In this document: one piece after another, positions 1 through 44,010 of the stretch
How the letters are laid out: each line of letters opens with the position of its first letter
Numbering within the stretch: position 1 is the first letter of the stretch
The notes under the pieces: generated by a model
What the model was told of the DNA's origin: nothing
The model's input: only the letters and a program-made list of their open reading frames with translations
Databases searched by the model: none
Made by a program: the position numbers and the translations under genes
NCBI GenBank assembly: GCA_039707465.1
Contig: CM077648.1
Location: 76,322,119 to 76,386,118 of the forward strand
Reading direction: 5' to 3'
Length of the DNA: 64,000 nt
From: Rhabdophis nuchalis
Lineage: Eukaryota; Chordata; Lepidosauria; Squamata; Natricidae

Positions 1-835
1 TATTATTATTATTATCTTCTTGTTCTCCTCTCTGACCCCCAGTGGGCGGGGCCGTGGCCCCCTCCGCTCCTCCAGTTTCGTCCCCCAGGATAGAGGAATG
101 TTTTTTAAGAAAGGCTTCCGCCTCAGCAACTGTTTTAATCTTTACTCTTCCTCCATCCCAGAACACCAACATCCCTTCAGGCATCGCCCACTTAAACCAG
201 ACCCCCTGTTTGAATAATTTTTTGGATAAGAAGGAATACTTCCTTCTTACCTCTCTAATCTTTTTCGGGATCTGCTTCAAGATAGCGACTTCTTTTTGTT
301 GGTAAAGCAAAGGACCCTCTCTCTGCGCCCTCAAAATTCCCTCCCTAGTAGACCTTCTAACAAATTTAATATGTATCTCTCTGGGTATTTCATTTATCCT
401 GGCATATGTTGAATTTATTCTATAAACCAGGTCAATGTCCCCCCTGATCTCATCCTTGGGTTTATGTAAGTAATCTGCTAAAATTGTGCTAATAAGATCA
501 GGGAGGCATTCACCAGATTCTTCAGGAATGTTCTGAAATCTTAAAAAATATGACATCCTTTCAAAATCCATCCTAGACATATGACCAGTTAAATCTCCAA
601 TTTCAGTATTAACATTTTTAAGTTCTCCCTTTGCCCCAGCCAGCCCCACTTCCAACTCTTCAGTCTTCTGTGTGTTCTGCATCAATTTCTTCTGTGTCTC
701 CAAAAGTTCTAGTTTGGAACTGCAGTGGTCCTTTCTTAATTCTTTAATTTCCAGTACCAAAGAGTGTAACACTGCTTCCATAGCTGTCATTCTTTCTTCT
801 AAGCCTGGATTTTCTGGTTGTTTTTTAGAAGCCAT
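1..835 (-). CDS. L1-type ORF1 protein (RNA-binding), partial, no stop in window
   Basis: Open for about 278 codons from ATG at 835 to the window edge. The protein is about 80% identical by eye to the ORF1 of copy B. Order of parts: acidic/basic heptad-rich N-terminus (about residues 10-90, predicted coiled coil for trimerisation), an RRM-like domain starting near the motif SYFLRFQNIPEE and including PREIHIKFVRRSTREGIL, then a C-terminal domain with WFKWAMPEGMLVFWDGGRVKIK. In the L1 family this protein binds element RNA as a trimer and acts as a chaperone in the RNP. The start was chosen because it aligns with copy B and sits just after the 5'UTR. The frame ends in a run of Asn codons from the AAT repeat where copy B has Lys/Arg-rich codons and a stop, so the true end lies outside or has been altered. 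Confidence 0.7.
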   Translation of the reverse strand, partial: MASKKQPENPGLEERMTAMEAVLHSLVLEIKELRKDHCSSKLELLETQKKLMQNTQKTEELEVGLAGAKGELKNVNTEIGDLTGHMSRMDFERMSYFLRFQNIPEESGECLPDLISTILADYLHKPKDEIRGDIDLVYRINSTYARINEIPREIHIKFVRRSTREGILRAQREGPLLYQQKEVAILKQIPKKIREVRRKYSFLSKKLFKQGVWFKWAMPEGMLVFWDGGRVKIKTVAEAEAFLKKHSSILGDETGGAEGATAPPTGGQRGEQEDNNNN

Positions 836-861
836 GGTGAGCTGTTTAAGTCAGTGCCACT

Positions 862-870
862 AAGATGGCG
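862..870 (+). promoter_or_regulatory. YY1-like AAGATGGCG motif upstream of ORF1
   Basis: AAGATGGCG, antisense to the element, 27-35 bp upstream of the ORF1 ATG. The same motif sits at the same distance in copy B (29108-29116), and a weaker AAAATGGCG occurs in copy C (36817-36825). YY1 sites are known to position transcription starts in human L1. A function here is inference. Confidence 0.4.
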
Positions 871-1643
871 ATTTTTGGGTGCGGCCGCTGGAGCAAGTCC
901 AGAGAAAAAAGTTCAAATCAAAGTTAAAAAGTTGTAAGATCCAGAGAAGAGAGCAATTTTCACAATCAATTTTAAAGACAAAGAAGGCACTCCAGGGAAG
1001 GAATCAATTAATCACAAATATCCTCCATTAGTAGAGAGAGACAGTCCGGATCACAAAGGGATGCTGGAAATTTTCCATAAAGAATAGTCATTTAGGAACA
1101 AAGGGAAGCCATCTTCCCCCACCCAGTCTGGAAGCCAGCAGGAGAAAGCAACAGAAAAAATTGTTCCAATAAAGCCGGGCTTAGATACATTGTAGCTAGA
1201 AACAAACCGCAAAGGACTTTCACTACTTCAGCAAAGTCCGGATGAGAAATATCCGCTTCCTCTCACTCGAGGAGCCATTTCCACCCGCCGCTGCTGTAAA
1301 TCCGAGGGGGGTTTAACAAACACCCCCCTCAATCGTTTCTTTCAATCAAAGCTGCCAGCAAAAGAGTCAAAGTCACTCACTCTCCGCCTCACCGCCAAAG
1401 CCCCGGCAAAGCCATCCGGCTCGAACGCTCCCGCTCTCTCCAAATTCGCTATTTGTTACCGTCCTCCGTTGGCGAAGGGAACCAAGCCCCCCGCAGCATG
1501 TCTTCTTCCACCTAGACTAAAGACAAGGACCCTTCCCCGGCCGCCGCCAGGCTGAACAGGTCCAGGCAAGCCGGTCCTATGGAGGGTCCCCCCAAAAAAG
1601 GGGCACCCCGCCCCGTTTGGGGCAGAAAAAAGAACAAAACGGC

Positions 1644-1665
1644 GGATGAGTCCCAGGACTCATCC
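1644..1665 (-). other. 5'UTR hairpin, covarying with copy B
   Basis: A 10-bp perfect inverted repeat (plus-strand arms GGATGAGTCC and GGACTCATCC, 2-nt loop) lies about 30-50 nt from the element's 5' end. The equivalent site in copy B (29895-29916) has different bases but keeps pairing, so an RNA stem may be under selection. Confidence 0.6.
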
Positions 1666-1694
1666 GTCGCCGCCAGAAGCCGGAACAGGAAGAT

Positions 1695-2633
1695 CCATAA
1701 CAGATTCTTGAAAGTGTGTATGTTTTCATGTTGCTCTCATGGAATTTCCCAGTTCCAGTGTCCAGTTCCATTTAGGCTGGAATGAGAATTTCTCTTCTTT
1801 CATTTTATATTCTTTCAGGTACACAAAGAGTTGTCTTAGTGAAACAGTCCTATTTTGTTGCTTCTGTGACATCGTGCTCCTTATTTAATTTTGCTATTGT
1901 TGTTCTGGGAAAGGCTGCATATACACTGATGTTGTGTAATGAAACGTAATGCAAGCCAATATCAAGCTTAGACTCCAAAGATTATAGAGGTAGGAGGCCC
2001 ATGGTAGCTAAGAATTGCATGCCCAATTTATATTATTCCTATTAATTGGATTTCAGGGTCACACAGCTAGCCAGCTGCAACCATGCAAAGAATATCAAGA
2101 ATTCTGAAATTGCACCAGGTTTCATCTTAGCTAGTTCTGCAGGGGTGCATAAAAACATTCCTTTTCAACAGTGTTTATGCCCATATGGAGATGGCTCTGT
2201 GGAACCCCTATGCCAGATGCCCCTTTGTTACTTTCTCTATAGGAAATCTCAGAAGGTATATATTTATCCTATTTTAGAGACTTACCCTTATAGAAAGCAA
2301 AATGTCTATGGTCACTGCTTCTCCATGATCATCAACCCAACATACCTTTCTGTTCTGACCGCCCCCCCCCTTTCTCCAACTAACACAAGACTGGCTGTCT
2401 GCCAATAACTCTCTTGGCTGCTTGCCTGAATGACTCTGAACAGATACGAAGCTTCCTAACTCGACTAAACACGAACCCGAAAATCAACACGAATAAACAC
2501 GAACCTAGAAATCCAACGTTGTTCTCTGCAAGGACTTTCTTAGCAAAGACTTCCTTTTAAACCCTCTTGGGAGGGGCCAGTCATTAGGCAGCTGGGACTA
2601 ATTCAACTCCTTCGAGTTCACTTCTGATGCAAT
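1695..2633. other. Unrecognised sequence, with an LTR-like promoter-like stretch at 2446-2640
   Basis: No convincing gene. At 2446-2640 the minus strand reads like a promoter-bearing repeat: a TTTAAAAGG box at about 2555, then several repeats of CGTGTT(T/G) downstream. I cannot classify it. Confidence 0.3.
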
Positions 2634-8118: not shown

Positions 8119-8122
8119 TCAT
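5363..8122 (-). CDS. L2 LINE ORF2 fragment (endonuclease + reverse transcriptase), 919 codons
   Basis: An uninterrupted frame encoding the C-terminal part of an APE-type endonuclease, then a non-LTR reverse transcriptase and a C-terminal domain. Visible motifs: GDFNLP at about residue 121, the TDH (usually SDH) endonuclease motif at 188-190, the RT block LDLSAAFDTINHG (motif A), GVPQGSVLSPLLF (motif B), and the catalytic box, which reads LDADD at about 637-641. Copies 2 and 3 read YADD at this position, so a single T-to-G change has replaced the conserved Tyr with Asp (codon at plus 6209-6211). The two metal-binding Asp residues remain. The start Met is not natural: the true N-terminus was lost with the 5' truncation, and the first residues are partly flank. 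The product would normally nick target DNA and copy its own mRNA in the nucleus. The long open frame suggests a young insertion, but truncation makes it incapable of autonomous movement. Confidence 0.82.
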   Translation of the reverse strand: MTLCQRGSRTWWELRRLWLGHEGGLPLVEMCPPGYRTFHQPRALGRAGGVAVIVKEGLEPRETIVPQTTGCESLCVKWGLGRQLGLLVVYLAPRYVAAALPELLGVIATVAVETPRLLVMGDFNLPSVGESSEVAREFMASMTAMDLTQLIQGPTHEGGHTPDLIFVSGQWKSDLGIGDIVNTPLSWTDHSLLRLDFPTAAPLRGETEPESPIWFRPRRLMDPDGFQTALGPVPVPLTRAPMEDLVAAWNTATTGALDRVAPLRPLLQRRNTLAPWFTEELGVMKRCKRCLERRWRSTHSESDRTQVRAHLRTYIVALRVAKRHHCATLIASAENRPAALFRVTRSLLQQRVREAPLQGRAEEFVTFLQEKIAQIQNELAPIHGPVGCHETDLVWEEFDSVTSEDMDRLRGRLRATTCLLDPCPSWLVLASWEVTRGWLQEVVNASLSEGSLPASLKEAMVGPLLKKPSLDPALLNNYRPVSNLPFLAKVVESVVAQQFPRHLEEVDYLDPRQSGFRPGHSTEMALVALVDDLWRARDGGCSSILVLLDLSAAFDTINHGILLHRLGGLGVGGTVLWWFSSYLSGRSQFVLAGGQRSTARPLVCGVPQGSVLSPLLFNTYMKPLGEIIRGFGVEYHLDADDTQLYISTPNHPNDAVAVMCQCLEAVRIWMGSNGLRLNPTKTEWLWFPAARFNQLTPSLAIGGEHLAPVDGARNLGVLLDARLSIEDQVTAVARRAFYQVRLVRQLRPLLDRDALRTVTHALVTSRLDYCNSLYIGLPLRCTRRLQLVQNAAARGIMGTARSTHVTPLLRELHWLPVVFRVRFKVLIIIFKVLHGSGPSYLRDRILPHTSSRPIRSHREGLLRVPSTRLCQRATPRGRALSVAGPALWNDLPPDIRTTTDLRSFRLKLKTYFFRLAGLG

Positions 8123-17985: not shown

Positions 17986-20900
17986 CTTATATACCGCCCT
18001 TTTCACCAGAAAGGGACTCAGGGCGGTGCACAGAAAAGTAAAACCCCACAATATACAAAATTTAAAAAACAATTAAACCAATATAACTGTGCTAAAATTG
18101 AATAAATAGTTAAAAACCCATAAATAACAAATTAAAATATTCCCTAGTCTATGTCAGGCCGGCTAGATGAAAGAAATGAGCTTTTACCATCCGACGGAAG
18201 AGTCATAGGTCCATGATGGTGCAGATATCGGGGGGAAGGTCGTTCCAGAGTGTCGGACCCGCCACAGAGAAGGCTCTTCCCCTGGGGGTCGCCAGTCGGC
18301 ATTGACTGGATGATGGCACCCTAAGAAGGCCAACTCTGTGAGAGCGGACAGGTCGAAGGGAGGAATGTGGTAGGAGGCGGTCTCTCAAGTAACCAGGACC
18401 CGAGCCATGGAGCACTTTGAAGATGGTAACTACGACCTTGAAGCGCACCCGGAAGACCACAGGCAGCCAGTGCAGCTCGCGCAGGAGAGGTGTTACGAGG
18501 GAGTAACGAGAGACTCCCAGAATCCCCTGCGTGGCTGCATTCTGCACTAGCTGGAGCCTCCGGGTGCACCTCAGGGGGAGCCCCATGTAGAGGGCGTTGC
18601 AGTAGTCTAGGTGGGAAATAACGAGGGCTTGAGTGACCGTGCGTAGGGCATCTCGATCTAGAAAGGGGCACAACTGGCGTATCAGGTAGACCTGATAGAA
18701 GGCCCCCCTGGCCATGGCCGTCACATGGTCGTCTAAGGACAGCCGTGAGTCCAGGAGGACACCTAAGTTGCGGACCCTTTCCGCGGGAGCCAATGACTCA
18801 TCCCCGATAGCCAACGATGGAGTTAGTTGACTATATCGAGATGCCGGAAACCACAGCCACTCGGTCTTGGACGGGTTGAGTCTGAGTTTGTTACTCCCCA
18901 TCCAGAGCCGCACGGCCTCCAGACACTGAGACAGCACTTCCACGGCATCGTTGGGGTGGCCAGGGGTAGAAATGTACAGCTGCGTGTCGTCAGCGTACTG
19001 ATGGTATTCTACCCCAAAGCCACAGATGATCTCACCCAACGGCTTCATGTAGATGTTAAACAGGAGGGGTGAGAGAACCGAGCCCTGAGGTACCCCACAT
19101 AAAAGGGGCCTCGAGGTCGATCTCTGCCCTCCTGTCAGTACATACTGCGACTGGCCAGAGAGGTAGGAGGAGAACCACTGCAATACAGTGCCTCTCAATC
19201 CCAGCCCCTCCAGCCGGTGCAGAAGGATACCATGGTCGATGGTATCAAAAGCCGCTGAGAGGTCTAATAGGGCCAGGACAGAGGAACAACCTCTGTCTTG
19301 GGCCCTCCAGAGATCATCAACCAACACGACCAATGCCATCTCCGTGCTGTGTCCGGGACGGAAGCCGGACTGGCGCGGGTCTAGATAGACGGTTTCCTCC
19401 AGGTGTCAGGAGAACTGTTGAGCTACCACACTTAGCCAGAAAGCTAAGGTTGGAGACTGGACGCTAGTTAGCCAATAATGCTGGGTCCAGGGAGGGCTTC
19501 TTGAGGAGAGGCCTCACCACCGCCTCTTTCAAGGTGGCCGGAAGAGACTCCCTCACTCAGAGATGTATTTACTATCTCCTGGAGCCAGCCTCGTATAACC
19601 TCCTGGGAGGCCAGTACTAGCCAGGAGGGACACGGGTCCAATAAACATGTGGTAGCATTCAGTCATCCCAACAACCTGTCCATGTCATCAGGAGTCACAA
19701 AGTCAAAGTCTTCCCATAAAACGGTCTCAAAACCTGCCCCCGATTGCCCGCCCGGATCTACCTCATTGGAGATCAGCTCGCTCCGGATCTGAGCGACTTT
19801 ATCCAGCAGATATTGACCGAACTCCTCTGCACGACCCTGTAAAGGAGCTTCCCGCGGCCCCTGTTGGAGAAGGGAGCGGGTTACTCTAAACAGGGTGGCA
19901 GGGCGGTTATCTGCGGATGCGATAAGGGCAGCGAGATAGTTACATTTCGCTGCCCTTATCGCCACGAGGTAGGTCCTTAAGTGGGACCAAGCACGTGTTC
20001 GAACAGATTCGGCGCAAGTGGATCTCCAAATACCCTCCAGGCATCTCTTGCATCGCTTCAATGCCCTCAACTCCTCGGAGAACCAAGGGGCCAGGGCAGA
20101 TCGGCGATGCGTGAGAGGTCGCAAGGACACGACCCGGTCCAGGGCCCCAGTGGCCGCGTTATTCCAGGCGACCACCAGGACCTCAGTCGAGTCGTGGGTC
20201 AGGGTTCCCGGTATTGGCCCAAGCTCCGTCTGGAATCTCTCTGGATCCATCAGGAGCCTGGGGCGGAACCATTGTGGAGTATCCGGTTCTGCCTCCCCGT
20301 GGTGGGGTGTAGCGGTTGGGAAGTCTAGTCGAAGGAGAGAGTGATCTGACCATGACAGGGGGGTGATCGTTAAGTCCCCTAATCCCAGATCACTCCTCCA
20401 CTGGCCGGAGATAAAGAAAAGATCCAGCGTGTGGCCTCCGGTGTGAGTGGGGCCCTGAATTACTTGGGCCAGGTTCATGGCCGTCATGGAGGCCATGAAC
20501 TCCCGAGGTAACTCAGAGGTTTCGCCTACCGATGGCAGATTAAAGTCCCCCATGACTAAAAGCCTGGGGGTCTCAACTGCCATCTCGGCTATCACCTCGA
20601 GGAGCTCGGGCAGGGCTGCTGAGACATAGCGGGGAGCCAGGTACACAATCAGCAAGCCCAACTGCCTCCCACGGCCCCACTTCATACCTAAGGCCTCACA
20701 GCCGGCGATCTGCGGCACAGCGGTCTCCCTCGGAGCTAGATCCTCCCTCATAATAACCGCCACCCCCCACCCCTGCCTAGGGCTCGTGGCTGATGGAAAG
20801 CCTGGTAGCCTGGCGGGCACATTTCCACGAGGGGCACCCCCCCCTCAGGACCCAGCCAGGTTTCCGTGACACCTACCAGGTCCGGCTCCCTCTCTAATAC

Positions 20901-21245
20901 CAAATCATGGATGAGGGGGGCCTTGTTGATAACGGACCTGGCGTTAAGCAGCATCAGCCTCGAGCCCCCGCCCTGGGAACTCTGACCCCCTGGGTTGAGA
21001 GAAGAGCCCTGGAGATCGGAGCGCGCAACCTCTTGTAAACAGCGAGTGCGCGCTCCCGACAACTGATTTGGTCTCCGGCTCCTGCCATACTTACCCCTCC
21101 CACACACTGTCCTGATAGAATGACACTCTGGTTGAATGACCTTCTTACCCCCCCTTGAAATGGACACCACGTCCTCCCCGTCGGGATTACAAGCCGGTCT
21201 GTACACAATACCCTGTGGGTTATACCCCCCACCCACCTCCCTAGT
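17986..21245 (-). mobile_element. L2 LINE, copy 2 (nearly complete coding region)
   Basis: The 3' terminal stem motif (ACCGCCC...GGGCGG) lies at 17993-18028, followed on the minus strand by UTR, RT and endonuclease, up to an N-terminal region at about 21236. Same family as 53838-58476. It lacks the simple-repeat tail and abuts a CR1 fragment, which suggests a deletion or insertion at the junction. Confidence 0.82.
18203..21236 (-). pseudogene. L2 ORF2 (endonuclease-RT), frameshifted
   Basis: Three open pieces: 21236-20748 (N-terminus and start of endonuclease, LLNARSVINKAPLI), 20820-19663 (endonuclease, GDFNLPS and SWSDHSLL, plus the linker), and 19339-18203 (RT with LDLSAAFDTIDHG, GVPQGSVLSPLLF, an intact YADD box and C-terminus). 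Frames change near 20750-20820 and between 19663 and 19339. Motif C is intact, unlike copy 1. The protein would be dead because of the frameshifts. The last codons also differ from copy 1. Confidence 0.8.
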
Positions 21246-27590: not shown

Positions 27591-27954
27591 GTTAAGCTTC
27601 TTACCATGTGAAGTATTGTGGCTACAGATCTTCCCCATCAACCAGGGAGACTTGAGGCAATGATAGAAGTGCAAAACCATGAATCTTCATCTATCTTGTA
27701 CAAAATGTCTTCTCAATGCAGGTCAGGATGTTGAGTTGGAGTCATAATTTGAAGTATCATATGCCTGGACAATCTCTGTTATATATGTTGGAAAATCAGG
27801 ATACCTACTTTGAATTATTATACAGGATATTGAATTTGAAACTGGTACTAACAATTAATTGCAGTGATAAATTTGTATATCTATATTGATGTGAGTCACT
27901 TTGGGCGTTTTAGGAGAATTTCAAATAGATCCTAATCTAAGTATACCAACTTAA
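27588..27954. other. Unrecognised flank of copy B
   Basis: AT-rich, no feature. It ends with the 14-bp target duplication at 27955-27968. Confidence 0.5.
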
Positions 27955-28232
27955 ATAACATTTTTCTCTGTTTTGAAAAAGTTTTATTGGTTTTTACAAT
28001 TTTCGAAAAGGGTAGGGTAAGGGATACAGAAACATATTAAGAACTTTCACGTCGGGATCATTGGCCCTTCTAGGGCTTCATAATAAAACATTAAAAAAAA
28101 CATTTTTCCAAAAGTACTACAAGATGAAAATAAGTACAAAATTCCTAAATTCTCCATTCTATGCTAGCAGTCATGTACAAACATCCAGACATAAGGTTAA
28201 ACAATATTAATAATAATAAAAGAAAAGCAAAG

Positions 28233-29081
28233 TTATTTTTTCGATCTAAGTCTCTTGGCAATTGTATCTTCTTTTTCTCCTCCCTGGCCCCCAGCGGGCG
28301 GGGCCGTGGCCCCCTCCTTCCCCCCTGGATCTTCCCCCAGGATAGAGGAATGTTTTTTAAGAAAGGCTTCCGCCTCAGCAACTGTTTTAATCCTCACTCT
28401 TCCTTCATCCCAGAACACCAACATCCCTTCCGGCATCACCCACTTGAACCAGATCCCGTGGTCAAACAATTTTCTGGATAAGAAGGAATACCTCCTTCTC
28501 ACCTCCCTAATCTTTTTTGGGATCTGCTTCAAGATGGTGACTTCCTTTTGTTGGTAAAATAACGGGCCCCCTCTCTGCACCTTCAAAATTCCCTCTCTGG
28601 TTGACCTTCTAACAAATTTAATATGTATCTCTCTGGGTACTTCATTTATCCTGGCATATGCTGAATTTATTCTGTAGACTAGGTCAATATCCCCCCTGAT
28701 CTCATCTTTAGGTTTCTGTAAATATTCTGCTAAAATTGTGCTCATGAGATCAGGAAGGTATTCACCAGATTCTTCAGAAACATTCTGAAATCTTAAAAAA
28801 TATGACATCCTTTCAAAATCCATCCTAGACATATGACCAGACAAATCTGCAATTTCAATGTTGACATTTTTAAGTTCTCCCTTTGCCCCAGCCAGCCCCC
28901 CTTCCAGCTCCTCATTCTTCTGTGAATTCTCCAACACTTGCTTCCGTGTTTCCAGAAGGTCCTCCTTAAAACTTTTATTATCAGCTCTCAAAGCTTTAAT
29001 TTCCAGCACCAAAACTTGTAACACCGATTCCAAAGATGACATTCTTTGTTCCAATCCTGCCAATTCTGATTTTGATGCCAT
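28233..29081 (-). CDS. L1-type ORF1 protein, intact, 282 aa
   Basis: A complete frame from ATG at 29081 to a stop at 28233. N-terminal about 90 residues are heptad-rich (SLESVLQVLVLEIKALRADN..., predicted coiled coil and trimer). Residues about 105-195 form an L1 RRM-like fold, with YFLRFQNVSEE as the first strand and PREIHIKFVRRSTREGILK as the RNP1-like strand. Residues about 200-255 match the L1 C-terminal domain (IWFKWVMPEGMLVFWDEGRV). The tail is Gly-rich then basic (AKRLRSKK). In L1 biology the protein coats its RNA and aids reverse transcription, moving between cytoplasm and nucleus. It is shorter than human ORF1p (338 aa). The intact frame indicates recent activity or selection; it would need an ORF2 protein from elsewhere. 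Confidence 0.85.
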   Translation of the reverse strand: MASKSELAGLEQRMSSLESVLQVLVLEIKALRADNKSFKEDLLETRKQVLENSQKNEELEGGLAGAKGELKNVNIEIADLSGHMSRMDFERMSYFLRFQNVSEESGEYLPDLMSTILAEYLQKPKDEIRGDIDLVYRINSAYARINEVPREIHIKFVRRSTREGILKVQRGGPLFYQQKEVTILKQIPKKIREVRRRYSFLSRKLFDHGIWFKWVMPEGMLVFWDEGRVRIKTVAEAEAFLKKHSSILGEDPGGKEGATAPPAGGQGGEKEDTIAKRLRSKK

Positions 29082-29107
29082 GGTAAGCTGTTAAAGTCAG
29101 TGTCACT

Positions 29108-29116
29108 AAGATGGCG
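29108..29116 (+). promoter_or_regulatory. YY1-like AAGATGGCG motif, copy B
   Basis: Same position relative to ORF1 as in copy A (862-870). Antisense to the element. Confidence 0.4.
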
Positions 29117-29894
29117 TTTTTGGGGCGGGGCCGTTGAGGCAAATCAGGAGCAAAACAGTTCAGGTGAAAGTTGTAAAAGAATTCAAGACCCAGCAGAGAA
29201 ACACTTTTCACAATCAAAAACTTTAACAGAGAAGGCACTCAGGGAAGGAATCAATTAGTCCAGAAATTTCTTCATTAGTAGAGAGAGAGAGTCCATTTCA
29301 CGAAAAGATGTTGGTAATTTTCCAAAGGTAAAAATAGTCATTCAGGAACAAAGGGAACCTTCCTCCACCGCCCTGCCTGGGAGCCAGGAGGAGAAAATAA
29401 CCCAAGAAAAATTGTATCAAGCCAGCCAGACTTAGATACATTGTAAGAAAATAAGCCGCAGATCACTTTCGCTTATTTCAATGCAGTCCGGAAACAAAGT
29501 ATCCGCTTCCTTGCAACAAGGAGCCATTTCGGAACGCCGCTTTAAATCCGAGGGGGGATTTAACCAACAAACACCCCCCTCTACGTTCTTTCAATCCAGG
29601 CTGCCAGCATATATAATATTGTAAATCACTCACTCTTCACCTCGCTGCCAAAGCCCCAGGGAGCCTTCCGACCCGCATGCTCAGTTCTTTTTAAATTTTG
29701 CTGATCGTTACCGTCCTCCATTGGCGAAGGGAAACTCCCCCTGCAGCATGTCTTCCTTCGCCTAAACCGAAGACAAGGGCCGTTTCCCAGCCGCCGCCAG
29801 GATAAACCAGCCCAGGCAAGCCAGTTTTACGGAGGGACCCCCCAAAAAAGGGGGTGCCCCACCCCGTTAGGGGCAGAAAAAAGAACAAAACGGC

Positions 29895-29916
29895 GGACGA
29901 ACCCCAAGGTTCGTCC
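29895..29916 (-). other. 5'UTR hairpin of copy B
   Basis: Arms GGACGAACC and GGTTCGTCC (9 bp perfect, 4-nt loop), 33-55 nt from the mapped 5' end. Relative to copy A the pairs at stem positions 4, 7 and 8 have changed on both sides, preserving pairing. Confidence 0.65.
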
Positions 29917-29963
29917 GTCGCCGCCGGGAACAGGAACAGGAAGTCCAATATAACATTTTTCTC

Positions 29964-30948
29964 ATTTGTACATCACAAGGAACAGATTTAAGAAAATATA
30001 TTAAATATCCTGAAACTAGCTTCCAAAGAGAAGATGAAAGGTGAAAATTTAGGACAGAATGCATAAGTGTGTAGCTGCTAAGCTATGGCTTATTAGATAG
30101 AGATCATTACATGTGAACTGAAATCCATCAATGGGTTGTCAAATTGTTTTGATTGCTAAACAATAATACACTAATTAAATCATTAGAATGCCTTCAATGG
30201 TCTAAATGTATGAATGGAGTATACCTAAATTATATATCTAGATTCATGCAAGCACCATTAAAATTTCGGTAATCTTCTCTGCAATATTTGTGGAAATAGA
30301 TTCTTATTACTTTTTCATTCTTTAATTACTTCATTTTTAGGGGAGTAGAGCAAATATATATTTTGTTTTCTGAAAAATGACAAGCATTTTTTTCACTCTG
30401 ATGCCTTAGGAATATAATTTCTGTACCTACAAAGCAAAAATAATTATTATATTAAAATGAGGCAATTGCCCACCATATTCACATATGGTATATACACTTA
30501 AAATTTTTATAGTTATACAAGGTCTATTTGTTTGCGAACACATGTTTTAGGAAAATTCATATAAAATTTCAACTATCCATATCAGTTCAATATATTACCT
30601 CTAATATTAATAGCACTATTTACCAACATGGGCAATTCCTTGTGGCCATTGCAAAGTAATTTGTTTTATGTCCATCTACATTAGTCAATGGAAAATATTT
30701 TTTTTCTTCTAAACTAGATTGATTCAATTGCTTTAACAAAGATATGATGAATTTAGCTCAAAGTTCCTGATATAGTTTGCAATGTAATAAGTAATGGATC
30801 AAATCTTGTACCTGTGAGTTATTACAAATGCATAACAATGTGTAGTTGTTAATTCCTTATATATTCCATCCAAATAGGGTGTTGGCATCATTTCAAAATG
30901 AAATTCTTGTCTCAGGGAAATGAAATGTGAGAGACCATAAATAATATG
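29964..30948. other. AT-rich sequence, possibly a very old LINE fragment next to the Gypsy
   Basis: On the minus strand, 30480-30948 gives a stop-ridden translation with a Cys/His-containing stretch (LLCICNNSQVQDLIHYLLHC) reminiscent of LINE C-terminal domains. Similarity may resume after 35263. Weak evidence only. Confidence 0.25.
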
Positions 30949-31612: not shown

Positions 31613-33366
31613 TTAGGCATTCCCAGCGGCTTGATCCAGGTGCTGCAGTGTTTGCCGGAAGGCGGCGTCCAAGTCAGGGGGGCCTGAATAAGCGAAGGCC
31701 CTGAGCGGAGGTGCGGAACAATTCCCGAATGGCCCAACCGGGGCAACTGGGCAAGGCGGATCCGGCACCGGGGTTGGTGGTGTTGGCAGGCGGCGCCTCA
31801 GCTGATCCAAGTGGCGCCGCCACTCGGATCCATCCGGGAGGCTGAGCCTAAAAGAGCAGGGACCCGTTAGCTCGGCGATTGTGGCCGGAACCCATTTAGG
31901 GTCTCCAGCGTAGTTGTGGGTGTACACAGGGTCCCCGGGCTGGAATAGGTGGGAAGGGGGGGCCCCCAGGTTGCAAGGCTGCACTTCGTTGTATGACGGG
32001 TGCAGCCTGTCCAGGTGGTCCGCAGGCGGCGACCCATCAAGAGCTCGGCGGGGCTTTTCCGGGTGGCCGGGCAAGGAGTGGAATGCTGACCTAACAGGTA
32101 AGCAGCCACCCTTGCAGGCCAGTCCCCCTTGGTCATCCTCCCCAAGGCCTCCTTGGCCGAGCGGACGGCCCTTTCCACCCGACCATTGGAGGCCGGATGA
32201 TAAGGGGCCACTGGCACGTGGCGGATCCCTTGCGAGGCCAGGAACTCCTGGAAGGTGGCGGATTGGAACTGGGGCCCGTTGTCGGACACCACGATGTCCG
32301 GCAACCCGTGCGTCGCGAAGAGGCGACGCAAGGCCCTGACCGTACTCTCAGCTGTTGTGGAAGACATCAAGATGACCTCCACCCAGCGGAAGTAGGCGTC
32401 CATGACCACCAGGAACGTCTGGCCTCGGAAGGGGCCAGCGAAGTCTATGTGGAGACTGGACCAAGGGCTCCGGGCATGTCCCACTCCCTGGGCGGCGCGA
32501 CCGGGGGGCGGGGCGGGTGGACTGGCAAGGGACACAGCCTCCGACCCAGGCAGCCACCTCCACATCCACGCCTGGCCACCACACATAGCTGCGGGCGAGC
32601 GCCTTCATCCAAGCTATGCCAGGGTGGTCAGCGTGGAGCGTCCGGAGCACCTGGTGATGGAGAGGGGGGGGTATGATGACCCGATCCCCCCAGCACAAGC
32701 AGCCGCTGTGGAGCGAGAGCTCCAGCTGGCGTGTCTTGTACGGCCGAAACCCTTCGGCCATGCTGCCCTGAGGCCACCCTCGCAGGACCCAGGTGGAGAC
32801 CTGGGACAGGACAGGGTCAGCCTTCGTCTGGGCAGCAACGTCCAAGGACGTCAATGGCAGGCCGGAGTCTGCCACGGACAAGACGGACAGTGCCGGCACC
32901 GGCTCCTCGTCCGCCTTGGGGAGGGGGCATCTGCTCAGGGCATCAGCGTGCCCGAGCTGCTTGCCAGGACGGTAGTACAGCGTATAATTATACGCTGCCA
33001 GGAACTCCATCCATCTGGTCATCCTGGGAGAGAGGATGGGGGGGTCGGACGGTCACTGGCCAAAAGCCCAAGGAGAGGCTTGTGGTCTGTGAAGACAGCA
33101 AAAGTCTGACCGTACAGGTACTGGTGGAATTTTTTGATTCCGGACACCATAGCCAGAGCCTCCTTGTCTATCTGGCTATAGTTTCTCTCAGTGGGAGACA
33201 TTGTCCGGGACCAAAAAGCAATGGGGGCTTCCGAGCCATCAGGGAAGGAATGGCTCAGGACAGCCCCCAGGCCGAAGGGGGAGGCATCGCACGCTAATGT
33301 CAGAGGCAGCCTGTCATCATATTGGACTAGGACAGCCTCTGACGTAAGCGTGGCTTTGACAGCCAC
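31613..33366 (-). pseudogene. Gypsy element 1 pol remainder: RNase H and integrase
   Basis: Pieces in order. 33366-33019: RNase H with LACDASPFGLGAVLSH and TDHKPLLGLL. 33022-32348: end of RNase H, linker and the HHCC zinc region (HxxxH...CxxC). 32586-31867: integrase core with the DDE residues visible in IDFAGP, SDNGPQF and NGRVERAV. 32074-31613: C-terminal GPY/F-like module (WVPATIAELTGPCSFRL). Breaks: a TGA in place of a Trp codon at 33397-33399, loss of one C from a poly-C run near 33034-33040 (seven against eight in element 2), and frameshifts near 32500 and 32020. Integrase would normally insert the cDNA; here it cannot be made. Confidence 0.88.
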
Positions 33367-33396
33367 GAACGCATGCGCTTCGCGGTCGCCCCAGCG

Positions 33397-33933
33397 TCAG
33401 GCCGCGGATCGATCGAGCAATCGATGTAGCGGCTCGGCTAGCGTTGCCTTATGGGGTAGAAAAGGCACGTAGAAGTTCAAGAGGCCGAGGAATGCCTGCA
33501 GCTCCGTCTTGGAGATGGGGGAGGTGGCAGGGACAGAATGGACCCCGTGCACTGACAGGCCCAGTGCGGGAAACCAATCCAGGCCGATGATGGCCGCTAG
33601 GGGGTCAGAGACCACTAAGATAGGCAACCGTCCCTTGAAAGCCCCATACTCCACCCCCAGGGATATCTGGCCCAAGGTGGGAATAGAAGTCCCTTGGTAG
33701 TCCCGCAGGACTGTCAGAGGAGGGGACAAAACATCCAGGGAGAGGCCGGGGCAGATCCTGGCCAACCGTGCCAGGGAGATGATGGACCTAGAGGAGCCTG
33801 AGTCCACCTCCATGCAGACCCCCACCCCCTCCAGTTTTACAGTCGTTTGAAGCCGCGTACGTTCGGGCAAGGCTTCCTGCAGGGCGGGTGCGTCCGTCAA
33901 GGCGAAGCAGCCAGACGGCTGCGGCTGTTGGCG
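33397..33933 (-). pseudogene. Gypsy element 1 protease joined to RT remnant by an internal deletion
   Basis: The frame covers the aspartic protease (active-site DSGSS near 33806-33820; second conserved stretch IIGLDWFPALGLSVHGVHS). It then passes directly, at about 33517, into the post-RT segment SKTELQAFLGLLNFY. In element 2 these two points are about 780 bp apart and hold the entire RT finger/palm region including YFDD. The deletion keeps the reading frame. Upstream, a TGA at 33934-33936 separates this frame from gag. Confidence 0.88.
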
Positions 33934-34800
33934 TCAGCCCTGGCGTCGCTGGCCGGGTTGTTGGGTCACCTGTCCCCTCCGGTCGTCTCCGGTGCGCCGT
34001 TGGGGCTCCGGGGTGGGCGGTGAGTCGGTAGGGGCTGCGGCATGGCAGACGGCAGCCAGGTGGCCTTTTTGGCCGCAACGGCGGCAGGTGGCGGCCCGGA
34101 ACGGGCAATCGGTTCGGGGGTGCTTTCCCCCGCAGCCCAAGCATTTGTTGGCGGACTGCTGAGGAAGAGGCCTGCGGCCGGCCGACCGCACGTAGGCGAC
34201 CTGGTCTTCCTCGTCCAGGTCGTCGGAGTCTTCCACCAGGCAGGTGCGAGCAGCCGGTTGGCGGTCCAGGTCCCGGTCAAAGACCGAGGACTCGGACATT
34301 TCAAACGCCCGAGCCTCGTCTACCGCCTGCTCCAACGTTAGCTCCGTGTGGGCCAGCAGGCGCCTTCTGAGGCGGATTTCCCTGAGGCCCCAGATAAACT
34401 GTTCGAGCAGCGATTCACCTAGGAAGGCGGAGGCAAAATCGCATGGGATGGCGGCCACACGGAGTGCCTGAAGGAAATCGGCCACCGACTGGTTTGGTTT
34501 CTGCAGGCACTTCCGAAAGGCGAAGCGATGGGTCATCCGCGACGGCACCGGGGCGTAGTGGGCCCGGAACCGCTCGATCAGGGTGTCCCACGGAACTTCG
34601 TACACCTCAGTCGGCGCGGCCACGGTGCGGGCAGTTGGGAAGAGCTCTGGGCCGCCGCAGCCCAAGAAATGCCCCAATTTCCTGGCTGGAGGCAGTGCCC
34701 CGTAATCATTGGCCAGGATAAAGCATTCGAAGCATGCCATAAACGAGACCCAGGTCTCCTTTGAAGAGTCAAAAGGAGCGAAGGGAGGGACTGATCCCAT
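33934..34800 (-). CDS. Gypsy element 1 Gag, 288 aa
   Basis: Open from ATG at 34800 to TGA at 33934-33936. A retrotransposon capsid-type region (residues about 1-190: PFAPFDSSKETWVSFMACFECF..., then the SVADFLQALRVAA and LTLEQAVDEARAFE helices) is followed by two zinc knuckles at about 220-255 (CLGCGGKHPRTDC, spacing CX2CX3HX4C, and CRRCGQKGHLAAVC, CX2CX4HX4C), then a basic tail. Gag forms the particle and packages RNA. The TGA is in the same frame as protease; element 2 has GGA at the matching codon, so this is probably a nonsense change rather than a natural terminator. Confidence 0.88.
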   Translation of the reverse strand: MGSVPPFAPFDSSKETWVSFMACFECFILANDYGALPPARKLGHFLGCGGPELFPTARTVAAPTEVYEVPWDTLIERFRAHYAPVPSRMTHRFAFRKCLQKPNQSVADFLQALRVAAIPCDFASAFLGESLLEQFIWGLREIRLRRRLLAHTELTLEQAVDEARAFEMSESSVFDRDLDRQPAARTCLVEDSDDLDEEDQVAYVRSAGRRPLPQQSANKCLGCGGKHPRTDCPFRAATCRRCGQKGHLAAVCHAAAPTDSPPTPEPQRRTGDDRRGQVTQQPGQRRQG

Positions 34801-35262: not shown

Positions 35263-35601
35263 ATATGGCATTCCTTGTCCATCTTTAAAAAAATTGATAT
35301 CAGTTAAACAACATAAGTGTATATATCTGCTCTTGTCAAAAATATTTTTAAAATGTAGAATAATTTATATCATTCAGCAGTTTCTGATCAAGTGATCATT
35401 GTGAAAATAATTTCAGACACAAATTTACACATCTATAATGATCCAATCTGGGTTGATCACCAGTGATGGTTGGTTGTATCTGTCTTTTTTTAGTTGTAGA
35501 TTGGGGTATTGATGGCTAGTTATTAAGTCATTGGCTGTTGTTTCCTTGTGCTGCCTCAGCTCCTAAGTACTTGATAAACTGGTGTCCCAAAGGTGCTTTT
35601 T
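35263..35601. other. AT-rich flank; 35440-35586 may belong to the PLE interrupted by copy C
   Basis: No gene. The stretch ending ACTGGTGTCCC and its continuation after copy C (AAAGGTGCTTTTTC, PLE terminus) read as one older repeat split by the insertion. This is inference. Confidence 0.4.
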
Positions 35602-37681
35602 TTTTTTTGAATAAAAGTTTTTATTGATTTTACAATTTTATAATATTAGGGAAGGGTAATTAGGGTTTATATTATACATTTTAGAGCTTCCATACCAGAG
35701 ATGGTGACTGTAATCGGGTCCTCATACAATATCATGTTAAACAAGTAGTGTTCGGAGATATATACATTTGGCACATTTTTAAGATTCATACATTCCATCT
35801 TTAGTTTTACATTTTCATCCGTTTCAAGAATTACAATAGCTCAAAATTAATTATTTTTGAGATCTGAGCCTTTTTGCTATCGCACCTTCTTTCTCCCTCC
35901 CCTCAGAGGGCGGGACCATAGCTCCTCTTATTCCTTCTTCTTCATCTCCCAGGGTTGAGGAGTGTTTTTTAAGAAAGGCCTTGGTCTCTGCAATTGTTTT
36001 AATTCTAATTCTGCCTCCCTTCCAGAATACCAACATTCCTTCAGGCATTAACCATTTAAACCAGATCCCATTTTTATATATTTTTTTAGACAAGAAGCAA
36101 AATTTCCTTCTTGCTTCTCTAATCTTTTTTGGGATCTGCTTTAATATGGCAATATCTCTTTGTTCATATTTCAATGGACCCTCCCGTTGTGCCCTTAGTA
36201 TCTCCTCCTGTGTGTACCTTCTTAAAAATTTAATATGAATCTCTCTGGGAACTTCATTTATTCTAGCATATGCTGAATTAATTCTATAAATTAAATCTAT
36301 TTCCCCCCCCCAAAGATATTCTTTAGTTTTTTTGATATAATCTGCTAAAATTCCACTCATTAAATCTCTTAAATCTTCACCTTCATTTCAGGAACATTCT
36401 GAAACCTAAGGAAGAAAGACATTCTTTCAAATTCAAATTTAGACATGTGCCCAGAAAATTCTGACATTTCTTTCTGCAATTCTTTTAACTCGTCCCTCAT
36501 CTCGGCTGCCCCCTTCTTCAACTCTCCAATTTCCTGTTGGTTAATTGTTATAGTTTTTTGTGACTCCCGCAGTTCATCTCTTAAATCTGAAAAATCTTTC
36601 GTCAAGCCTATCCGCATTTCTTGTATTTCTCTCATTATGTCATCAAGCGTTAGTCCTTTCTCTTTGTCTCCTCCTGTTGCCCCTTTCTGTAACATGGTAG
36701 AAATTTTGGCTTGTTGTGAAGTTGGAATGGCTCTAGATGAAGTTTGAGCTGGAAAGGCTTTTTCCCATCGGAGATTTTTTTTTATGAGGCATTTGTGATT
36801 TTAAGTTCGTAGGATAAAAATGGCGTTGAGGAGTGGGCAGTCTATGAGGTTCAAGATATCAGGAACACATTAAGTCAGAGTCCAATTTTCAATTTTTTAA
36901 GTTTTATCAAGTCCAGAGGGATAATTTTTCTATAAATCCACAATAAGAAGGTCCACGTATTGGGAAATACACCAAGGACTTCTTGAGAATACCGAAGAAA
37001 TATATTTTCCTTTAAATTCCAAGTAACTGAAGGGATGTTACATAACTCAATAAAAGTTTATCATCCGGAACAAAGAAATCGCCATTTTGCCGCCTCTCCT
37101 CCAGGAGTGCGAAGAAAGTGAAAGCAAAGTAAAAGTTTCCGCTGTTTAAACAAGCCGCAGATACAGTGTTACCAATTGTAATTCCAGCATTGAAACAAAG
37201 TTTCTTTAGTTGGTATAAGAACAGATTATGTTAATCTTTCTCTCTCCTTAATTCGGAGAGCATTTTAAACAGCCGCTTTTATGAGAGGGGTTTTTTGTAA
37301 TTGAAACTCCCCCTCTGTTCTTCTTTTTTTACAACAATTTAATGGATCGTAAAGCAATAACTCACAGTCATTTTTCCTTTGAAAGAAGGTCCCGCTGCAG
37401 CACCAGGTCCGGCATTTCGGCCCGTCTTCTTTTTTCCGCTAATTCCAGTAAGCGTTGGCAAGGGGGTCGCACCCCCCCCCGCTTTCCGCTTCCTCAGCAC
37501 CTAGAGCAAAGCGGGAAAGGGCATCCCACTGACCACCGTCGGTACGGAAGCTCCCTGCAGCCGCTCGTCCGGCAGGGAGTTAACCCAAACTCCCTGGACC
37601 CCCCTGGGGGGCCAGCTAAAAAAGCAAGTGGCAGGAGCGCCCGAAAGCACTTCTGTTGCCGTCGAGAACCGGAAATGAAAT
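35602..37681 (-). mobile_element. ORF1-only L1-derived element, copy C (diverged subfamily)
   Basis: Bounded by a perfect 15-bp target duplication (CCAAAGGTGCTTTTT at 35587-35601 and 37682-37696). 2,080 bp on the minus strand: 5'UTR of about 985 bp, ORF1 (one frameshift), about 250 bp of 3'UTR, AATAAAAAC and a poly(A) run (plus-strand T-run at 35602-35608). The 3' terminus (AAAATTGTAAAATC(C)AATAAAA) matches copy B although the rest is strongly diverged, so the ORF1-only structure is a heritable family trait rather than an accident of one copy. Confidence 0.85.
35851..36695 (-). pseudogene. L1-type ORF1, one frameshift (copy C)
   Basis: 36695-36369 encodes the N-terminal coiled coil and the start of the RRM (SFFLRFQNVPE). 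36360-35851 continues in another frame with the rest of the RRM (PREIHIKFLRRYTQEEILRAQ), the C-terminal domain (IWFKWLMPEGMLVFWKGGRI) and the basic tail AKRLRSQK. A single-base loss near 36388-36395 accounts for the break. Sequence is well diverged from copies A and B, but domain order and length are the same. Confidence 0.82.
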
Positions 37682-37683
37682 CC

Positions 37684-38310
37684 AAAGGTGCTTTTTCAAG
37701 AGACAACCGGATTGTTTTTCTTTGAAGATATTTCACTTCTCATCCAAGAAGCTTCTTCAGTTCTGACTGGATAGTAGGAAATGGAAGGATTTATATACCT
37801 TCCAGACAGCTGGTCATTTGCATTCTTTTAGAGAGTCACTGAGGCCACTTGGAGATTTATCTGTGTCCTCAGGGTCACCTGAATAGTGCAAATGGGTGAT
37901 ATGCTGCTGATTAATCAGCACTCTTGTTGACTGACAAGGGAGCCGTTTCCCAAGCTACAATCATTTCCCTGGATATTTTTGTATGGGCTTGGCCAACAAT
38001 TTTTAGTTGCAAAATTGGATGTACATTATTGTCCATTGCAATGTGATGCTATCAATGAATTGACAAGGGGTTGGATTAGAAGACCTCCAAGGTTCCTTCC
38101 AACTCTGTTATTCTATTCTATTCTAATTTGGATCTCCTTGTCTGACCCCTCGCTTGTGTTCTTGCAGTCTGGTGGTTAGCTTCCTCCCTGTCTGTCCTAC
38201 ATAGTCACAGCAGCAATCAATGCAGGAGATGTGGTAGATTATATTAGAAGTATATCCCATTATTACTGTCAAGAAGGATTTTTTTGCCAAATAAATATTG
38301 CCCATGAGGA
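37684..38310 (-). pseudogene. Penelope-like element 3' fragment (GIY-YIG endonuclease and terminus)
   Basis: 38305-38123 on the minus strand encodes IIYHISCIDCCCDYVGQTGRKLTTRLQEHK: the Cys-rich GIY-YIG-type module typical of PLEs, with conserved Y-V-G-Q-T-G-R and E-H residues. Downstream the element runs to its terminus at about 37684 (AAAGGTGCTTTTTC). The conserved PLE motif (plus TTTCACTTCTCATCCAAGAA, 37731-37750) lies between. A short CR1 end interrupts it at 38071-38127. Confidence 0.7.
38071..38127 (+). mobile_element. CR1 3' terminal fragment inside the PLE
   Basis: GGGGTTGGATTAGAAGACC...CCTTCCAACTCTG and an ATTCT tail of about three units. Confidence 0.75.
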
Positions 38311-42544: not shown

Positions 42545-44010
42545 TTGTATTGTGTTTTTAAATATTCCTGTACAATATTCCTGTACAGTTTCAAGAGCTG
42601 CAAAATGGTGGCGTGTATGTAGATTTTCACGGGTGTAGGTATGCTGGTATTGCTGTCTTCGGGTGTTTTCCCGTGTAAGCATGAAATTGTTATTGCAATG
42701 TTTCGACAAGATCTCACTTGCCATCCTCAGGCTTCGGTCTGCGGTTACGAAGGCATCGCCCTTCCTTAAATATTGGGGGGGGGGATGGAGTGCTGACTGT
42801 TGTTGTGAGTGGGTTGATTGGCTGTGCAGCAGTATCATGATTGGTAGATTGATGCTGATTGGTCTTATTTGTATGTTTCTCCTTATTTTGAATTTCAACG
42901 GCTTGGGTGGAGGGTGGGGCTCGTCTGTTGGTCAGTGCTGGTTTCCAGATGTCTGGTAGGCGGGAGGTGTCATCACGTTTGTTCATATTATTATGTTGCT
43001 TCTCTATTTCGATGGCTTCTCTGAGTATTCTCCTGTTCAGCTGTTCAGCCTTGGAGATCACTTTAGTTCCTTGAAAGTCAATATCATGTCCTGTAGTTTT
43101 GAAATATTGATAAAGAGATGAGGTATTAAGATGATTTTTAATGCATTTTTATGTTCTGTGATACGTGCACTTATTCTTCTGTTGGTTTGTCCTATGTAAG
43201 TGGCAGGGCAGATTTTACATGGAATTTTGTAGACTCCTTGGCTTTCTAGCTGGATCTTGTCTTTGGGGTTCCTTAGGATATTGGTTGTTTTTTGGTCGGT
43301 GTTGAAGGCTGTCTTGATGTTGTGCTTGTGGAGAATTTTGCTGATTTTGTCTGTGGTACCTTTGATGTATGGGAGGAGGGCAATGCCATTTTCCTGTTCT
43401 TTGTCTTGGCTCTTGGGCAGTGTCTCTTTTTGGATTAGTTTGGTGATTGTTTTTCTTCGGAATCCTTTGGATATTAATGCATTTGTGAGAAAGCGTAATT
43501 CAGTTTTCAGGTGGTCTTTGTCAGCTAGGCGTTTGGTTCTGTATATGAGGGTTTTGGCTACAGAGTTTATCTGTGCAGAGTGGTGATGGGATTGTGCATT
43601 TAGGTAGAAGTTGCTGTGTGTTTTTTTCTGGTAGATGGTGTGTCCCAGGGAGCCATTAGGTTTTTTGTAGATTAGGACGTCTAGAAAAGGAAGTTGGTTA
43701 TTAGCTTCTATTTCCATGGTGAATTGTATTTTGGGGTATATAGGGTGTTGAGGTGTGTAAGGAAGTTGTCCAGTTTTTCTTTCCCATGTGGCCAAATTAC
43801 GAAAGTGTCATCTACATATCTGAGCCAGAGTTTGTGTTTGTGTTCAGATTTGTCTAAGGCATTGGTTTCAAAATGTTCCATGTATAAGTTTGCGATGACA
43901 GGTGAGAGGGGTGATCCCATGGGTGCTCCTTCTATCTGTTTGTATCCTTGTCCATTATGAATGAAGTATGTGTTGGTTAGACAGTGGTCTAACCAGATTT
44001 TGCATGGTTT
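42545..44010 (-). pseudogene. Penelope-like element, 3' half (RT end plus GIY-YIG endonuclease)
   Basis: Minus strand: 43920-43708 holds the end of the RT (GSPLSPVIANLYMEHFE and the catalytic box YVDD in LRYVDDTFVIW). After a frameshift near 43740-43760, 43795-43058 continues with a long linker (LPFLDVLIYKKPNGS...) and the GIY-YIG endonuclease (YKIPCKICPATYIGQTNRRISARITEHK). A further frame (43061-42714) encodes a polar tail. PLEs use this RT and endonuclease for target-primed insertion. The 5' half is missing beyond a (TA)n run at 44011-44027. Confidence 0.85.
42700..42730 (-). ncRNA. Hammerhead-ribozyme-like core near the PLE 3' end
   Basis: The minus strand reads CTGAGGA, then a 6-bp stem (GGCAAG / CTTGTC) with a 6-nt loop, then GAAAC. 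This fits the hammerhead layout CUGAUGA-stem II-GAAAC with one U-to-G change in the core. PLEs are known to carry hammerhead motifs. Catalytic activity of this degraded copy is doubtful. Confidence 0.45.

Follow-up and report, generated by a model that had tools for sequence, protein, structure and literature searches.

In a 64,000-nucleotide stretch of the Rhabdophis nuchalis genome (contig CM077648.1, positions 76,322,119 to 76,386,118, hereafter the window), two complete insertions, copies B and C, carry an L1-type open reading frame 1 (ORF1) and no ORF2, and were probably copied in trans by the ORF2p of an autonomous L1, a reading to which we assign a probability of roughly 0.7. Their most likely identity is that of HAL1-like, ORF1-only parasites of L1 residing outside mammals. 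HAL1 (half-L1) is described as an L1 derivative that encodes ORF1p only (PMC5753468), bears a poly(A) tail and target-site duplications, and depends on full L1 (PMC5322556).

Comparison across the whole 64-kb window resolved three copies of the family, A, B and C, all on the minus strand. Copy B (27969..29949; 1,981 bp, with its 5' end at 29949) is flanked by 14-bp target-site duplications, ATAACATTTTTCTC on the 3' side of the element (27955..27968) and its 14/14 identical counterpart on the 5' side (29950..29963), and consists of an 868-bp 5' untranslated region (UTR) (29082..29949; observed/expected CpG 0.70 as against 0.50 for the window), an intact 282-residue ORF1 (28233..29081) identified as L1 ORF1p from the list of reading frames and from profile and structure matches, and a 264-bp 3'UTR (27969..28232) with AATAAA at 27983-27988 on the complement. 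Copy C (35602..37681; 2,080 bp) is likewise complete and flanked by 15-bp duplications, CCAAAGGTGCTTTTT (3' side, 35587..35601; 5' side, 37682..37696; identical at 15/15 positions), and comprises a 986-bp 5'UTR (36696..37681), an ORF1 in two pieces, and a 249-bp 3'UTR ending in a short poly(A) (35602..35850; AATAAA at 35620-35625 on the complement). The N-terminal piece of the C ORF1 (36372..36695) extends a few codons beyond the frameshift and the C-terminal piece (35851..36387) ends at the stop codon; this one frameshift is the only interruption of an otherwise open frame. For B and for C, the duplication is the sole common stretch of at least 8 bp between the compared flanks of about 100 bp each. 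The AATAAA signal lies close upstream of the A-rich end in both copies, with a clean poly(A) in C only. A preliminary description of this DNA had placed B and C within perfect duplications and had found in each a 5'UTR, an L1-type ORF1 and a short 3'UTR with AATAAA and nothing else, and both statements hold.

Copy A (1..1697) is cut by the window edge, with its 5'UTR at 836-1697, its ORF1 at 2-835 and its 3' part outside the window. Its ORF1 is open from 835 up to the edge, where positions 1-20 of the window are an (AAT)n repeat in the place of the conserved basic C-terminal tail that B, C and the protein relative P0001 share; microsatellite growth or a 3' truncation may account for the repeat. 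The earlier claim of an intact ORF1 stands for B; A is open to the edge only and runs into (AAT)n, and with its 3' part beyond the window it cannot be counted as ORF1-only or as intact to its stop. In a BLAST comparison of the window (E 1e-3) A, B and C matched only one another, with an identity of 80.8% over 1,710 columns for A and B, and of 72.7% over 633 ORF1 columns and 76.4% over a further 55 at the 3' end for B and C; the same comparison returned no further copies or 5'-truncated pieces in the window. All three copies lie within 38 kb (window 1-37681) in one orientation, and each reaches its 5' end.

The anatomy of B and C leaves no room for the endonuclease and reverse transcriptase of an ORF2, as the stretch that follows ORF1 spans only 264 nt in B and 249 nt in C. 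No reading frame of at least 150 residues other than ORF1 is present in either copy, and inspection by eye of the translations and sequences of the two 3'UTRs, with no formal test, revealed no recognizable ORF2 remnant. Both complete copies (2/2) are therefore L1-derived elements with ORF1 only, as in HAL1; both are flanked by duplications, with a short poly(A) in C and an impure A-rich end in B. They also belong to a set of copies with common ends, since the 5' ends of A, B and C agree to within about six bases and the 3' ends of B and C are homologous.

The reading frame of B and C is a LINE-1 ORF1p. Searched against the PDB, a profile built from 14 sequences ranked human LINE-1 ORF1p first (E 7e-8). 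The fold predicted for the B protein agrees with that of the human ORF1p trimer (Foldseek E 3e-9), at 14-20% identity in structure alignments. The structure model, which was derived from the 14 sequences and replaced a poor earlier model from six (pLDDT 52.4), shows the L1-clade arrangement of a coiled coil (residues 3-92), an RNA-recognition motif (about 95-185) and a C-terminal domain (about 189-243). The sequence of B alone produced no match to PF02994, the L1 model of Pfam, up to E 10 with HMMER filters on, and no L1 match in the PDB up to E 10; the relative P0003 does pass PF02994. Of 15 protein relatives, five (P0011-P0015; query coverage 7-42%) were excluded from the alignments, and all 12 that carry names are snake proteins, from four species that are all Serpentes by taxonomy. 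Searches of viral contigs with the B ORF1, and of bacterial and archaeal genome contigs with P0001, yielded no relatives, these being poor places to look. An RhxxhE trimer motif in the N-terminal region of B, A and P0002 was set aside, as 85 of 1,000 shuffles of the first 90 residues of B match it and the C pieces lack it.

ORF1 has evolved under purifying selection. Over the 266 codons common to A, B and C, with the columns at the (AAT)n end of A removed, the NG86 method gave a nonsynonymous divergence (dN) of 0.110 and a synonymous divergence (dS) of 0.379 for A-B (ratio 0.29, bootstrap 0.18-0.43), 0.312 and 1.516 for A-C (ratio 0.21; 2 of 200 bootstraps without a value), and 0.322 and 1.693 for B-C (ratio 0.19; 7 of 200 without a value), while the YN00 method gave 0.09-0.22 for the C-terminal piece of C. 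A one-ratio codon model returned an omega of 0.220 with a log-likelihood of -2182.74 (GY) and an omega of 0.243 (MG), as compared with a log-likelihood of -2231.88 at an omega of 1, the best of five GY fits. The preliminary description had proposed selection for a working ORF1 together with a dN/dS comparison, and the omega of 0.22 across A, B and C bears this out. Synonymous change between B and C is saturated, with ORF1 still whole in B and one frameshift short of whole in C.

The recent spread that had also been proposed survives solely as an upper bound on age, which follows from the perfect duplications of B and C. Identity at all 29 of the 29 duplicated positions has a probability of 0.051 at 5% divergence per copy, and a frame of this size would remain free of stop codons at 5% divergence with a probability of 0.13, or 0.004 when assumed indel rates are added. 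Because the duplications are perfect and a stop-free frame is improbable at such divergence, most of the divergence is likely older than the two insertions and accrued in their source lineages, with or without ORF2.

Newly seen here is a 5'-proximal hairpin of the element, which varies by compensatory changes. Hairpin 1, whose stem of 10 bp closes a 4-nt loop, sits about 30 nt in from the 5' end, at 29894..29917 in B, where it covaries with A (1643..1666) and C (37632..37655), all on the minus strand; in C, 9 of the 10 stem pairs are standard, two of them G-U. The six stem positions that differ between A and B form three compensated pairs, an outcome matched by 26 of 200,000 random placements under a simple model. 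In the three-way alignment, 5 of the 12 pairs of helix 1 have changed on both sides and 91.7% of cells pair, and shuffling the entire 16-pair structure 500 times never produced five doubly changed pairs, the structure having been derived from the same three sequences on which it was tested. When the partners were slid as a control, five of the six versions had no doubly changed pair and the sixth, at -3, had one. The 5' 117-122 nt fold more stably than shuffles in A (z -4.3, 0/200), B (z -3.3, 0/200) and C (z -2.5, 4/200), as does the 53-nt hairpin piece alone in A (z -3.5, 0/200) and B (z -2.1, 10/200). The 5' end has thus been selected as a paired structure, on evidence from three sequences that is narrow but clear. 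Three consecutive predicted hairpins occur at the 5' ends (window 29834-29917 in B and 37573-37655 in C) in all three centroid folds. Hairpins 2 and 3 of B (29834..29874, minus strand) appear in the centroid fold only and lack covariation evidence; hairpin 2 is missing from the minimum-energy fold of B and is invariant in sequence among A, B and C, and hairpin 3, also without covariation support, keeps its fold in C despite a quite different sequence. An Rfam scan of 27900-30000 returned six matches up to E 5, none of them near its gathering score.

Target-primed reverse transcription by the L1 machinery would account for the anatomy and the duplications. A promoter within the initial 450 bp of the 5'UTR, which are richer in CpG, would yield a polyadenylated RNA, which would be translated to ORF1p that in turn may coat the same RNA; the ORF2p of a resident L1, supplying endonuclease and reverse transcriptase, would then be caught at the poly(A) tail, nick a T-rich site and prime the copy. 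The putative nick sites are TTTTT/CA for C and TTCTC/AT for B, of which the former is L1-like and the latter only roughly so against the L1 consensus. The conservation of ORF1 makes it likely that the element requires its own ORF1p alongside ORF2p from elsewhere, by analogy with the argument made for guinea-pig HAL1. The 5' hairpin is a predicted candidate for acting on the full-length RNA, in translation, packaging or ORF1p nucleation.

Several observations weigh against this reading. No ORF2-bearing partner was seen in the window, and dependence in trans is for this reason inferred from anatomy. Copy B terminates in CAAAACA and its nick site is only T-rich. The YN00 ratio for A-B, 0.40, indicates weaker constraint than NG86, and selection on ORF1 may have acted while it resided in ORF2-bearing parents. 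A profile of six sequences placed coiled-coil proteins first in the PDB, with LINE-1 ORF1p at only E 0.063. As for the hairpin, the count of further pair types was reached by 33 of 500 shuffles, 3 of the 12 helix 1 pairs fail in C (two outer pairs and one in the stem), and the 53-nt piece of C folds no better than shuffles (z -0.4, 65/200).

The descent of B and C from one ORF1-only ancestor stands at about even odds. Their 5'UTRs are homologous (z 10.5, 0/200 shuffles), as are their whole 3'UTRs (global z 5.9, 0/500), the latter owing to the 3' part; when the last 60 nt are removed the 3'UTR match is weak (z 2.2, 9/500; local z 1.8, 24/500), and over the first 130 nt past the stop codon z falls to 0.9 (89/500) globally and 0.3 (189/500) locally. 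Pieces of the 5'UTR that start in its first 520 nt score z 3.1-6.3 and the last three 1.4-2.7, values inflated by cutting from a free alignment, for which a reversed-C control reached z 3.2; 7 of 12 pieces of the 5'UTR and 3 of 5 of the 3'UTR exceed this control. Of the proposed inheritance of the ORF1-only layout, the same layout in both copies is an observation and the single ORF1-only ancestor a possibility, as is a junction common to the two, the post-stop stretch being not clearly homologous.

The most serious alternative, whose chances we put somewhat short of even, is that B and C arose separately as half-L1s, two old ORF2-bearing L1 families each having given rise to ORF1-only copies by deletion, splicing or premature polyadenylation, so that the layout is convergent and ORF1 was selected in full-length parents. 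Two origins are favored by reports that mammalian HAL1s arose independently several times (PMC5753468) and that the anole has 20 highly divergent L1 families, some with 5'UTRs as long as those of B and C (PMC5389967); 3'-truncated L1 RNAs carrying ORF1 are moreover thought capable of retrotransposition (PMC4859970). The post-stop 130 nt, no more alike than shuffles, and the saturated synonymous sites point the same way. One origin is favored by the near-equal distances from stop to end (264 nt in B, 249 nt in C); judged by eye, the points at which clear 3' similarity sets in lie no more than about 25 nt apart in the two copies, each of which retains the ORF1 C-terminus and stop. The absence of homology may also be decay, since 2 of the 12 5'UTR pieces likewise score only z 1.4-1.7, and a z of 2.6 is obtained for the initial 100 nt of the 3'UTR when these are cut from the full alignment. 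A more far-reaching proposal, which we regard as less likely than not, is that ORF1-only parasites of L1 form an old and long-persisting clade in squamates, in which B and C lost ORF2 once, before synonymous saturation, and then used the ORF2p of other L1s, selection keeping their own ORF1p and a 5' hairpin recognized by that ORF1p for packaging its own RNA.

It is very improbable that B and C are ordinary L1s that happened to suffer internal deletions after insertion and that no ORF1-only family exists: the complete copies number only two, yet both (2/2) have the identical layout, each retaining its two UTRs and the stop of ORF1, and the perfect duplications (29/29 identical) limit decay since insertion. 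About as improbable is that the copies are processed pseudogenes, made by L1, whose source is a host gene that descends from L1 ORF1 as mammalian L1TD1 does, for although poly(A), duplications and a selected frame would look alike and snake relatives bear gene-like names ('nucleoporin GLE1-like', 'tropomyosin-like'), three copies with matching 5' ends, 5'UTRs of 862-986 bp and deep divergence point to several source lineages rather than one gene.

Copies B and C probably work like HAL1, a likeness of layout and published description that carries no claim of descent. Mammalian HAL1 as described shares with them L1 derivation, ORF1p as sole product, poly(A), duplications and a presumed reliance on full-L1 ORF2p. 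Unlike mammalian HAL1, B and C have their nearest named relatives in snakes and are saturated at synonymous sites between them; they also possess a covarying 5' hairpin, a feature not looked for in HAL1. HeT-A of Drosophila, another non-LTR (long terminal repeat) element, encodes ORF1 (Gag) but lacks a reverse transcriptase; it is telomere-specific and belongs to another clade with another type of ORF1. SpIREs, spliced human L1 copies, resemble B and C as shortened L1 RNAs copied by L1, but in the account of PMC5860796 the splicing is confined to the 5'UTR or joins the 5'UTR to ORF1, and it does not remove ORF2. Full-length squamate L1s share with B and C, compared by description only, membership of the L1 clade and a long 5'UTR (800-1,500 bp in anole L1AC1-15), and their anole consensus sequences measure 5.2-6.8 kb (PMC5389967) as against the 1,981 and 2,080 bp of B and C without ORF2. 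Rat HAL1 is reported to retain an internal promoter (PMC8535693), and guinea-pig HAL1 to have kept ORF1 coding for about 29-44 Myr (PMC3627910); a long-kept ORF1 in a half-L1 is thus already on record, and the mechanism is not new. In agreement with the preliminary description, every source passage that states the occurrence of HAL1 ties it to mammals. None of the paper titles found on HAL1 or half-L1 reports it from a reptile, in a survey that did not cover Repbase, Dfam or Bao and Jurka 2010, and the terms ORF1, half-L1, non-autonomous and nonautonomous do not occur in the squamate-repeat papers examined for them.

If ORF1-only elements persist in reptiles with a selected ORF1p, guinea-pig HAL1 would not be a mammalian oddity, and ORF1p must aid its own encoding RNA even where ORF2p is supplied from outside. 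What ORF1p contributes to mobilization in trans would then be testable outside mammals, with the covarying 5' hairpin as a concrete candidate for the RNA signal, and half-L1s would be seen to arise, and perhaps to last, in genomes with many competing L1 families.

Other mobile elements share the window. An open frame of 919 residues (5363-8122, minus strand), which matches reverse transcriptase and, below threshold, endonuclease, is CR1-like by eye and may be young, given such a length left open; pieces resembling it lie at 18203-21236 and 55001-57406. Between B and C, a Gypsy-type element (31613-34800, minus strand) has integrase matches and, in separate frames, matches to gag, zinc knuckle and protease that stay below threshold. 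A 245-residue frame (43058-43795, minus strand) is Penelope-like in look, with a sub-threshold GIY-YIG match (E 0.049); a passage of PMC5753468 states that Penelope has not been reported from amniotes. The CR1-like, Gypsy-type and Penelope-like frames are compatible with, but no proof of, a squamate host.
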